Shown piece after piece: positions 16,026-18,186 of a stretch of DNA of 39,184 nucleotides. How positions within the stretch are numbered: position 1 is the first letter of the stretch; each line of letters opens with the position of its first letter. The position numbers and the translations under genes are program-made. Below the pieces are notes generated by a model, which saw nothing but the letters and a program-made list of their open reading frames with translations, was not told the DNA's origin and did no database searches. The stretch is from a virus: positions 1 to 39,184 of IMG/VR virus record IMGVR_UViG_3300037189_018230; one strand, 5' to 3'.

Positions 16026-16262
16026 ATGCACACACAACCTCGCTCGAAGGCTTCGATTGTTCGTGAGCACATGGCAGCAGGCCGCTGGCAGGAAGCTATC
16101 CGCATCGCAGCCCGCTTCCCTCGCCTGGATCAACACCGGGCCGCCATACTCGACGCCCACGGCGCATTCACCAACCCGCGTTTCTTCACGCAGATCGGCA
16201 AGAACGTCGAATCCCTCAAGGAAGCCGGCCGGGTTGCCCTAATCGATCGATTCGGCGAATAA
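16026..16262 (+). CDS. small conserved phage protein, plus-strand
   Basis: 78 aa, starting at the ATG at 16026 (MHTQPRSKASIVREHMAAGRWQ, first 22 positions seen), with GGAGA ten bases upstream. The pattern 'REHMAAGRWQEAIRIAARFP ... FYTQIGK-like' is familiar from small phage proteins near methyltransferase and terminase genes, function unknown. It is the only rightward gene in the left half. Its last 24 bases overlap the methyltransferase 3' end, convergently. The helical, basic composition suggests nucleic-acid or protein binding. Confidence 0.68.
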   Translation: MHTQPRSKASIVREHMAAGRWQEAIRIAARFPRLDQHRAAILDAHGAFTNPRFFTQIGKNVESLKEAGRVALIDRFGE

Positions 16263-17195
16263 CGCCTCGTCCATCTGGACATCGCCGCAGGCATCGGTTG
16301 CGGCCCTTGGATCGCCCTTCACGAACACCAGCACGTTCTGGTGAGTCTTCCCCAGCTTTCGGGACACAGAGAACTGTTTCCCCACGCGGATAGCCAGTGA
16401 GGCGGCGGGCGTTATCAGGATGGCCTCGTTGTAGAGCCGTGCGCCGGCATCCTGAAAAGCTGCGATGGTGTCCGAGACAAAGTTCAGGTACATGCCGCGC
16501 CTGTCCCGCACATCGCCCACCACAAAGCAGGCAAACCGATCAGGCCGCAGCATGGATACCGACCGGGCGATGATTTCGCGGTAGGCCTCCAGGAACTCCG
16601 GGTATCCCATCGTCGAAATGTCGGCCGGGTCATCGGAATAGACCTCAAGGTCGGCATACGGCGGGCACGAGAAAATGAAGTCCGCTTCCACCCCAGCGCA
16701 ATGCCGGTCAATCATCCGGCTGTCACCGCAGTTCCAGACCGGGGAAATGTCGCCATCCGCACCGATTTCCTGCCACTGCTGCCGGTTCGCTTCGACCTGT
16801 TCGGCCCTGATGTCGCAGCCGACATACTGCCGCCCTGTTTTCGCCGCGACGACACCGCGCACAGACCCGCCGGAAAACGGATCGAGGATCAGGCCGCCGG
16901 GCGGGCAAAACCAGCGGTAAGCCAGCTCGCACATCACCGGGTCGAAGATGCTGGTGCCGTTCTGCACCTTCACGTCCGGGTTTGCGTCCAGGAACTCGCG
17001 CCACGTCACGTCATGGCCGACCTTCGCCTCATAGTCGTTTTTCGCGGCATAGACGGCCGGTGGCTGCGATGAAACCGAGAACGTCAGCAACGCCTCGCGC
17101 CCGGCTTCGGAACGCAAGCCCATTTTCAGCCAGGCCTCCTTGCGCTCCATCCACCAGCCACGGCGGGCATCCAGAACAGAGAAAGGCACGACCAT
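16239..17195 (-). CDS. DNA amino-methyltransferase half of a split ParB-methyltransferase
   Basis: 318 aa. Motif I DPFSGGSVRG (105-114) binds S-adenosylmethionine, and FSCPPYADLEV (175-185) is the catalytic motif IV, a SPPY-type variant pointing to N6-adenine or N4-cytosine methylation. The frame stays open upstream of the ATG at 17195 to 17318 and there encodes GFDADEIGQISKAL and SLADRF, the usual linker after a ParB domain. The N-terminal ParB domain lies in the other frame, so this was probably one protein of about 490 aa. Whether the methyltransferase is made alone from 17195 is unknown. Confidence 0.8.
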   Translation of the reverse strand: MVVPFSVLDARRGWWMERKEAWLKMGLRSEAGREALLTFSVSSQPPAVYAAKNDYEAKVGHDVTWREFLDANPDVKVQNGTSIFDPVMCELAYRWFCPPGGLILDPFSGGSVRGVVAAKTGRQYVGCDIRAEQVEANRQQWQEIGADGDISPVWNCGDSRMIDRHCAGVEADFIFSCPPYADLEVYSDDPADISTMGYPEFLEAYREIIARSVSMLRPDRFACFVVGDVRDRRGMYLNFVSDTIAAFQDAGARLYNEAILITPAASLAIRVGKQFSVSRKLGKTHQNVLVFVKGDPRAATDACGDVQMDEALFAESID

Positions 17196-17713
17196 GAAGC
17201 GGTCGGCAAGCGACTTGCTCGCTTCCTCGCGCTGCTGCTCCGGTGTCTCGGTGGTAAGCGCCTTGGAAATCTGACCGATTTCGTCAGCATCGAAGCCCTC
17301 AGAGCCAGATCGAACTCAGCCTCGGCGAGTCCTTCCAGTTCCAGCGACAGCAACTCCTGATCCCAGCCCGATTCCTCGGCAACGCGGTTGTCCAGAATCC
17401 GGTACGCCCGTTTCTGGCTTTCCGTCAGCCCTTCCTTCGCCAGCACCGGGGCGGTGCTCGTATCCGGCCAGCCGGGTATCGTCCAGCCGTGTTTGAGGAT
17501 GCGCTGCGCCGCCAGCAGGCGGCCGTGGCCAGCGATAACTTCGCCGTGCTCGTCGGTCAGGATCGGGAACGTCCATCCAAACTCGCGCAGGCTGGAAACC
17601 AGCTTTGCAAGCTGTTCCTCGCCGTGTTGCTTCGGGTTGCGGGCGTAGGGGGCCAGGGCTTCAAGCGGCCGGGCCTCGATCTGGAGAGATTGGGAGTGCA
17701 GGAGTGCGTCCAT
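17126..17713 (-). CDS. ParB-domain half, frameshifted at residue 138
   Basis: 195 aa. Residues 10-130 are a ParB/Srx-like domain: ARNPKQHGEEQL, then HGEVIAGHGRLLAAQ and AYRILDNRVAEESGWD. Such domains are commonly fused to phage DNA methyltransferases and may help with target recognition. From residue 139 the sequence turns into Arg/Ser/Pro-rich nonsense, because the true continuation is one frame away. A single missing base near 17298 restores the reading ...FDLAL-T-GFDADE. The start at 17713 lies inside the com gene, overlapping it by 53 bases; only a weak AAGG precedes it, so translation likely depends on com. Confidence 0.78.
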   Translation of the reverse strand: MDALLHSQSLQIEARPLEALAPYARNPKQHGEEQLAKLVSSLREFGWTFPILTDEHGEVIAGHGRLLAAQRILKHGWTIPGWPDTSTAPVLAKEGLTESQKRAYRILDNRVAEESGWDQELLSLELEGLAEAEFDLALRASMLTKSVRFPRRLPPRHRSSSARKRASRLPTASWSCLSLFWMPAVAGGWSARRPG

Positions 17714-17873
17714 AGCCTTGCGTCGGTGGTTCGACGCTCGGTGGGCGTTCCTGCACGGCGCTCGTGGCGCTCAACTGGTTGAATGTCCCGCAGCGCGGGC
17801 ATTTGATGTTCAAACGGGCGAAAATTGCTTCTGCCAGCTTCTTGTTGCACTGGCCACATCGAATTTCTTGCAT
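17661..17873 (-). CDS. com: Com-like zinc-finger translational regulator
   Basis: 70 aa, starting at the ATG at 17873 (IRCGQCNKKLAEA). Cys6, Cys9, Cys25 and Cys28 form a four-cysteine zinc finger, and the core IRCxxCNK...IKCPRC matches Mu Com. In Mu, Com binds an RNA hairpin and opens the ribosome site of the DNA-modification gene mom. Here the overlapping downstream gene is a ParB-methyltransferase, an analogous layout. The C-terminal 40 residues are Pro/Ser-rich and probably disordered. The AGGA ribosome site lies partly in a hairpin. Confidence 0.82.
   Translation of the reverse strand: MQEIRCGQCNKKLAEAIFARLNIKCPRCGTFNQLSATSAVQERPPSVEPPTQGYGRTPALPISPDRGPAA
17696..17756 (-). promoter_or_regulatory. 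structured translation-start region of the ParB gene
   Basis: On the transcript, GTGCAGGA (17749-17756) and TCCTGCAC (17696-17703) form a perfect eight-base outer stem around the start. Inside, GCGTCG (17732-17737) pairs with CGACGC (17720-17725) just before the AAGG/ATG. The same GCGTC can instead pair with GACGC right after the ATG (17706-17710), burying the site. This resembles the Com-controlled switch of Mu mom. Function is inferred. Confidence 0.5.
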
Positions 17874-17881
17874 TTTGCGAG

Positions 17882-17901
17882 TCCTATCGTTGGGTGATAG
17901 G
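17882..17901 (-). promoter_or_regulatory. hairpin over the com ribosome-binding site
   Basis: CCTATC (17896-17901 on the transcript) pairs with GATAGG (17883-17888) across a seven-base loop. The AGGA Shine-Dalgarno of com, eight bases from its ATG, overlaps the second arm. The structure could limit com translation. Confidence 0.45.
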
Positions 17902-18037
17902 CTTTGGCCCGCCACGCGCGTGGTGGGGGAGCCTTGGCCAAGACTCGCAGGTCTGTTCTGCGTGTTGCGGCGGCTGCCGGGGTGTTCCTAGCACCTCGGC
18001 GGTCGCTCTCTCTTCTTTCCTCCCGAAGCTCCGGCGG

Positions 18038-18076: not shown

Positions 18077-18104
18077 CCAACTCACCGCAAGGAGACCAAA
18101 AGCA

Positions 18105-18133
18105 AAAGCCCGCATGGATTAGATGCGGGCTTT
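18105..18133 (-). terminator. leftward rho-independent terminator, long stem
   Basis: A perfect eleven-base stem (AAAGCCCGCAT / ATGCGGGCTTT) with a seven-base loop is followed on the minus strand by TTTTGCTTTTGG. It ends the early operon 54 bases after its last gene. Symmetry makes weak rightward activity possible. Confidence 0.8.
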
Positions 18134-18186
18134 GGACGGAATTACTTCGAGAATGGGGCGAATTAGACCCATTTGTTGAAACGCTG

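Follow-up and report, generated by a model that had tools for sequence, protein, structure and literature searches.

A probable Com-operated translational switch with tandem hairpins before a ParB-methyltransferase gene, and a candidate leader RNA upstream of com, in a viral genome

Introduction

To our knowledge, control of a gene through an interaction of Com with RNA is known from one case, mom. In bacteriophage Mu, the zinc-ribbon protein Com is encoded by an ORF that overlaps the modification gene mom, and the start codon of mom lies in an inhibitory stem that adjoins and overlaps the Com hairpin (PMC6483171). SELEX, EMSA, and SHAPE experiments defined the target of Com as CC(N)2-3GAG within the loop of a hairpin, and the motif selected in vitro is NGAGNNCC(N)2-3GAGNNCC (PMC6483171). 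How Com reads the RNA was left open, and there is no structure of the complex (PMC6483171). The native Mu site, GAAUGCCUGCGAGCAUCCC, is a single hairpin built as GA-[4 bp]-C-N-GA-[4 bp], and its loop is CC(N)GAG (PMC6483171; Mu sequence L121).

The presence of com before a DNA methylase gene is already annotated in phages B3, KS5, AP3, and others and is widespread. In B3, KS5, AP3, Mana, and a Comamonas plasmid, a D12/Dam-type or N4/N6 methylase gene begins within com (KS5: PMC3091744). In a phage-associated promoter element of Pseudomonas syringae (pDC3000A), com and Com-type hairpins lie upstream of the levansucrase gene lscB, with the com stop codon 11 nt before the lscB start. A premature stop in com left levansucrase and levan production unchanged in P. 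syringae (PMC3899960).

Here we analyze a 39,184-nt stretch of DNA, the window, which is IMG/VR virus record IMGVR_UViG_3300037189_018230 (positions 1 to 39,184). The window features described below are all on the minus strand. The window shares with Mu com-mom a zinc-ribbon Com from an ORF that overlaps a modification gene, the hairpin form given above, and a start codon in a predicted inhibitory stem adjoining and overlapping a Com hairpin. It differs from Mu in having a ParB-methyltransferase gene instead of mom, a tandem pair of Com hairpins spaced by about 22 nt where Mu has a single hairpin, and a structured leader before com; our leader model (R2) has no match in the Mu com-mom stretch. 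The B3, KS5, AP3, Mana, and Comamonas plasmid loci all have tandem hairpins like the window, but their methyltransferases belong to other families that lack the ParB part. The P. syringae element resembles the window in its com and hairpins upstream of a target but not in the target itself, and R2 found no leader there. Relative to the Mu switch, the tandem sites and the ParB-methyltransferase target are new, and novelty is greatest for the leader. Literature searches found no description of the hairpins or the leader RNA, although the original Mu papers (Hattman; Wulczyn and Kahmann) may mention hairpins.

Com and its tandem hairpins

The com gene (17661..17873) begins with the ATG at 17873, and its stop codon ends at 17661. 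The 70-amino-acid product matches the Com family of zinc-ribbon proteins (PF10122, E = 7.3e-13, 48.2 bits against a cutoff of 22.9) and phrog_6417, “translational regulator” (E = 1.5e-17), and its four cysteines, C6, C9, C25, and C28, are invariant among 25 homologues. A sequence-only reading of this DNA had claimed a four-Cys Com homologue overlapping the start of a modification gene. This is confirmed by the PF10122 match and by the methyltransferase ATG at 17713, which lies within com, in another frame, 53 nt before the com end. In many phage records com is unannotated (e.g., L136, L143, and further search matches), and the RefSeq label for its product is “DNA-binding transcriptional regulator,” whereas Mu-type Com has been shown to bind RNA.

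Two hairpins lie in tandem in the com coding sequence, each with the pattern GA-[4 bp]-C-N2..4-GA-[4 bp] that the native Mu site also shows. Hairpin I (17757..17772) is GA-GCGC-C-AC-GA-GCGC-C (GAGCGCC AC GAGCGCC). It fits the in vitro selected motif, its loop is CC(N)2GAG, and it forms in the predicted free RNA with P = 0.98. Hairpin II (17733..17750) is GA-ACGC-C-CACC-GA-GCGU-C (GAACGCC CACC GAGCGUC). Its loop, CC(N)4GAG, exceeds the SELEX range by one base, and it is latent in the free RNA, with P of about 0.

In an alignment of 80 com genes (A4), the eight hairpin pairs were paired in 98.3% of cells compared to 81.6% after shuffling. Double-change cells in the stems numbered 100 versus 16 in shuffled alignments, a count reached by none of 500 shuffles, although sequence relatedness inflates this and all other shuffle tests reported here. 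Sliding the hairpin partner by 1 to 3 columns lowered pairing to 10 to 59%, and RNAalifold run on the same alignment returned exactly hairpins I and II. When every codon was redrawn from pooled synonymous codons, the number of hairpins in com coding sequences fell from 143 to a mean of 4.05 (maximum of 11), and an origin by chance or codon bias was rejected on this basis. The double changes are numerous and varied enough that, despite relatedness, there is little doubt that the aligned hairpins represent real RNA structure.

A covariance model (R1) was built from this alignment; the E values of both R1 and R2 are rough due to short calibration. R1 matched com of phages KS5, AP3, Mana, Carl1, TJ1, UMP151, Mcat3, and B3 and of two plasmids, the Comamonas plasmid and pDC3000A, at E < 1e-9, and none of these had been used in building the model. 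Across 399 Burkholderiales genomes, all R1 matches at E <= 4.6e-7 with a returned locus were com genes, and the first match outside com appeared at an E value of about 3e-5. Searches of the window and 17 loci against Rfam gave no credible match at the tandem hairpins or the com leader. We infer that Com of the window binds hairpins I and II, with two copies bound.

The start of the methyltransferase gene

The gene downstream of com is not mom but consists of a ParB-like part followed by an N6/N4-methyltransferase part. The ParB-like N-terminal part is in the ORF at 17126..17713 (phrog_620, E = 1.9e-39; phrog_498, E = 4.7e-37), which departs from the frame of the methyltransferase gene near 17300. 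The C-terminal part is in an ORF at 16239..17195 in another frame (PF01555, E = 2e-12; phrog_12517 and phrog_498). The two parts are joined near 17300, with the frame change within 17290-17310, and they form one continuous ORF in a relative, L002. About 2.4 kb upstream of its ParB-methyltransferase, L002 contains another ParB-like sequence, which is more divergent (36% identity; L002:733-1137).

In the predicted free ensemble, an outer stem closes over the methyltransferase start. Its 5′ arm, GUGCAGGA (17749..17756), pairs with UCCUGCAC (17696..17703), which is within the methyltransferase coding sequence. This stem had been drawn in the sequence-only reading, and it proved to be a perfect 8-bp helix with P of about 1 that has compensatory changes in L002 and L036. 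Inside it, GCGUC (17737-17733) pairs with GACGC (17724-17720) as an inner stem (17720..17737, P = 0.999) that is GUGUC/GACAC in L036. The weak Shine-Dalgarno sequence AAGG and the AUG (17711..17719) are enclosed, and the GG of AAGG and the U and G of AUG are paired in this closed state. The 184-nt RNA whose folding had been proposed as a check folded better than shuffled sequences (z = −2.36; 3 of 200 shuffles as good).

The core of the earlier proposal, a Com-type two-state RNA over a modification gene other than mom, is supported by the covarying hairpins and by the compensatory changes in the outer stem, but the switch as drawn is not. It had GCGTC choosing between GACGC copies before (17724-17720) and after (17710-17706) the ATG, and all three elements are present. 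However, pairing with the first copy, which was said to leave the start open, is the inner part of the closed state. The drawing also missed that GCGTC is the 3′ arm of hairpin II (17750-17733) and that a second Com-type hairpin (17772-17757) lies just 5′ of it. Of the stems for which covariation had been asked, the outer stem keeps compensatory changes in the three ParB-class relatives, while pairing with the second GACGC is not conserved.

A long stem closing the methyltransferase start is predicted in the free RNA of all four ParB-class loci (the window, L002, L036, and L037). The outer stem is UGCAGGAACR/YGUUCCUGCA in L036 and L037 and GUGCAUGAGCG/CGCUCAUGCAC in L002, and in each case it encloses a start-codon stem and an inner stem. 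Across these four sequences, 84.3% of cells in the start-hiding stem were paired compared to 24 to 41% when slid, and six pairs had double changes, a number reached in 8 of 500 shuffles. The changes that support the start-hiding stem are few, as the searches yielded just four ParB-class sequences. Three elements of the closed stem recur in hairpin II: the 5′ arm of the outer stem (or the sequence continuing it), the start-pairing loop, and the 5′ arm of the inner stem. Since these are parts of the 5′ half of the closed stem, hairpin II and the closed state are mutually exclusive. The two states are likely the start-hiding stem and the hairpins held by Com.

When the Com hairpins were forced, accessibility of positions −14 to +5 rose from 0.39-0.47 to 0.63-0.68 in all four ParB-class loci. 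The closed state was better than the Com-hairpin state by 12 to 22 kcal/mol, the spread reflecting how strictly the hairpins were imposed. Spontaneous co-transcriptional formation of hairpin II was considered and is unsupported, as its probability in truncated transcripts was at most 0.32. As opening is costly and hairpin II hardly forms, the energy must come from Com binding or from ribosomes passing through com.

Across the wider set of com loci, stems of at least 7 between the hairpin II region and the start were found in 29% of loci versus 9% of controls in which the downstream parts had been swapped. A start-hiding stem of this kind in all loci was therefore rejected in favor of a class-dependent one. 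Native starts of all classes were less accessible than those of chimeras (P = 2e-5, a value inflated by relatedness), but their relief by the Com hairpins was not significantly greater than in chimeras (P = 0.13). The Pseudomonas Dam-type class and L038 showed little relief by Com hairpins.

Model and alternatives

We consider it probable, on sequence comparison and predicted folds, that translation of the ParB-fused methyltransferase in the window is controlled by Com through a leader like that of Mu com-mom, but with two Com hairpins. Without Com, the mRNA would fold the methyltransferase start into the long stem 17756-17696, with hairpin I beside it. Com made from the upstream ORF would dock on hairpin I, and a second Com would capture hairpin II, which takes both its arms and its loop from sequence in the 5′ half of the stem. 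The stem would then be unable to close, the methyltransferase start would be exposed, and its translation would rise on Com binding. The structured com leader, potentially able to hide the start of com, may set when com is made. The unchanged phenotype of the P. syringae com mutant counts against this model.

The repeats in com might instead reflect conserved tail peptides of Com together with codon bias, given that hairpin I encodes LSAxSA and hairpin II encodes ERxxSV in the ParB class. This explanation is scarcely credible, as synonymous resampling destroys the hairpins (143 versus 4.05) and both strands of the stems change even as the tail peptide varies. The toggle of GCGTC between the two GACGC copies, both of which the window does contain, is very unlikely and was rejected on energy and conservation. 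Pairing with the post-ATG copy is less stable by about 10 kcal/mol, has P of about 0, and would expose the AUG more rather than close it; that copy is absent from L036 and L037.

The hairpins could also bind Com in an autoregulatory role, or to affect the stability or processing of the com mRNA, with the methyltransferase merely translated from an overlapping start. Their location within the coding sequence of com itself agrees with this, as do the weak or absent start-hiding stem in several classes (L038 and Pseudomonas Dam-type loci) and the P. syringae com mutation without effect on the downstream gene. We nevertheless regard it as improbable: hairpin II ends about 13 to 22 nt before the downstream start in most loci, the Mu hairpin of the same type serves activation of mom translation (PMC6483171), and the ParB-class stem carries compensatory changes. 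A different doubt concerns this genome, where the module may be decaying such that the switch controls no active enzyme, the methyltransferase frame being broken in the window and intact in L002. Decay seems possible but rather unlikely, since the leader, com, and hairpins are all intact. The two gene halves are also otherwise well conserved (77% and 73 to 74% identity to L002), so the frame break is as likely to come from an error in assembly or sequencing as from a real mutation.

The leader upstream of com

The RNA upstream of com has a structured leader of about 150 nt (17871..18025), recognized by a match to covariance model R2 and by covariation. It consists of P1, a long hairpin P2 with GGUGC..AACACC, P3 (GCAG/CUGC), P4, and a crossing helix, P5. 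The R2 match (94.4 bits, E = 2.4e-31) was the only strong one in the window, which is itself one of the 42 training sequences. Across these 42 leaders, P1 to P5, including the crossing P5, were paired in 91.6% of cells, and double-change cells numbered 136 versus 50 after shuffling, with none of 500 shuffles reaching the observed count. P1 to P4 were paired in 90.7% of cells in a further 40 sequences, with 171 double changes versus 53; this set contains no rows of the training alignment, but its model-made alignment leans toward R2. The com leader is probably pseudoknotted (P1xP5), judging by this covariation.

A leader segment, UGCGAGUC (17942..17949), overlaps the 3′ strand of P3 (17950-17947) and is complementary to GACUCGCA (17876..17883), just upstream of the com start codon. 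This alternative pairing was present in 90.9% of cells of the 42 leaders (0 of 500 shuffles). It was weaker in the second leader set, where the best stem reached 6 in 75% of sequences versus 40% when swapped. The complementarity suggests a second start-hiding switch, on com itself, that is less secure than the leader helices.

R2 matched 32 of 399 Burkholderiales genomes. Among the 30 R2 loci returned, 20 had com and 10 did not. In all 10 loci without com, the leader was directly before an ORF resembling the Dam-type (D12) methyltransferases of com loci, a family assignment named by Pfam for L084. R2 also matched phages B3, KS5, AP3, UMP151, and TJ1 and Moraxella phage Mcat3, while it had no match in the Mu com-mom stretch, Chuche, an E. 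coli com-mom plasmid, or pDC3000A. A scan with a 14-base leader pattern was uninformative, since most of its matches would be expected by chance.

We lean toward the view that this leader represents an undescribed cis-regulatory RNA family placed before DNA modification genes in phages of Beta- and Gammaproteobacteria. Such a leader of about 150 nt, probably pseudoknotted, would be able to conceal the start of whichever gene follows, either com or directly a Dam-type methyltransferase gene, and would respond to some signal. Com and the tandem hairpins would then be an optional second relay between the leader and unrelated modification enzymes.

The best Rfam match in the window, Thr_leader at 18179-18099, is upstream of the com leader and below the gathering score, as is the score of a weak NiCo match on the other strand of L030. 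Terminator-like stems, each with a T-rich stretch after it, are found just upstream of the leader, at 18179-18099 and about 18070-18040, and the subthreshold Rfam matches near 18100-18180 were set aside, as they overlap a terminator-like stem. In leaders including those of L041, L049, L086, and L107, the P4 hairpin is often a perfect palindrome, one example being CUCUCGCGAGAG, which could allow kissing-loop dimers or form a protein site.

com loci and their downstream genes

In the loci retrieved first, the gene that follows com usually overlaps it in a different frame. By clustering, the distinct products of these following genes fall into 58 Dam/D12-type proteins, 23 N4/N6 methyltransferases, 9 ABC-ATPase/GNAT proteins, 6 ParB-methyltransferases or related methyltransferases without ParB, 2 C5 proteins, and 1 Mom, along with a few others that include one further D12 protein. 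The layout of com before a modification gene is not unique to the phage of the window; the ParB-fused variant, found in only four loci, is the rare part. A genome-contig scan together with a protein search of the 399 genomes found only the L002 relative as a Com/ParB-methyltransferase pair, and a scan for ParB domains found no additional ParB-methyltransferase with com.

If the model is true, phages have attached a portable RNA-protein switch to Dam-type, N4/N6, C5, GNAT, and ParB-fused enzymes, and the timing of phage DNA modification could therefore be predicted from sequence. The roughly 80 natural hairpin variants offer material for working out how Com reads RNA, and the tandem hairpins might also serve as new orthogonal tags for RNA binding. 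The leader has no match in Rfam and would add another regulatory RNA, for whose signal a search is now possible.

In one class of loci (L010, L029, L048, L073, L086, L090, L108, L155, L163, L167, and L322), com is followed by a short, conserved ORF of about 50 amino acids and, where the locus extends, by an ABC-ATPase/GNAT-like protein of about 380 amino acids. This class is a candidate for an undescribed DNA modification pathway. A formyltransferase-like gene follows in the locus of this class in Pseudomonas phage Komp_PAO1_1. com and its hairpins also occur before genes other than modification genes, namely, levansucrase in P. syringae (L142, pDC3000A) and a GDSL-type hydrolase in a viral contig (L076).
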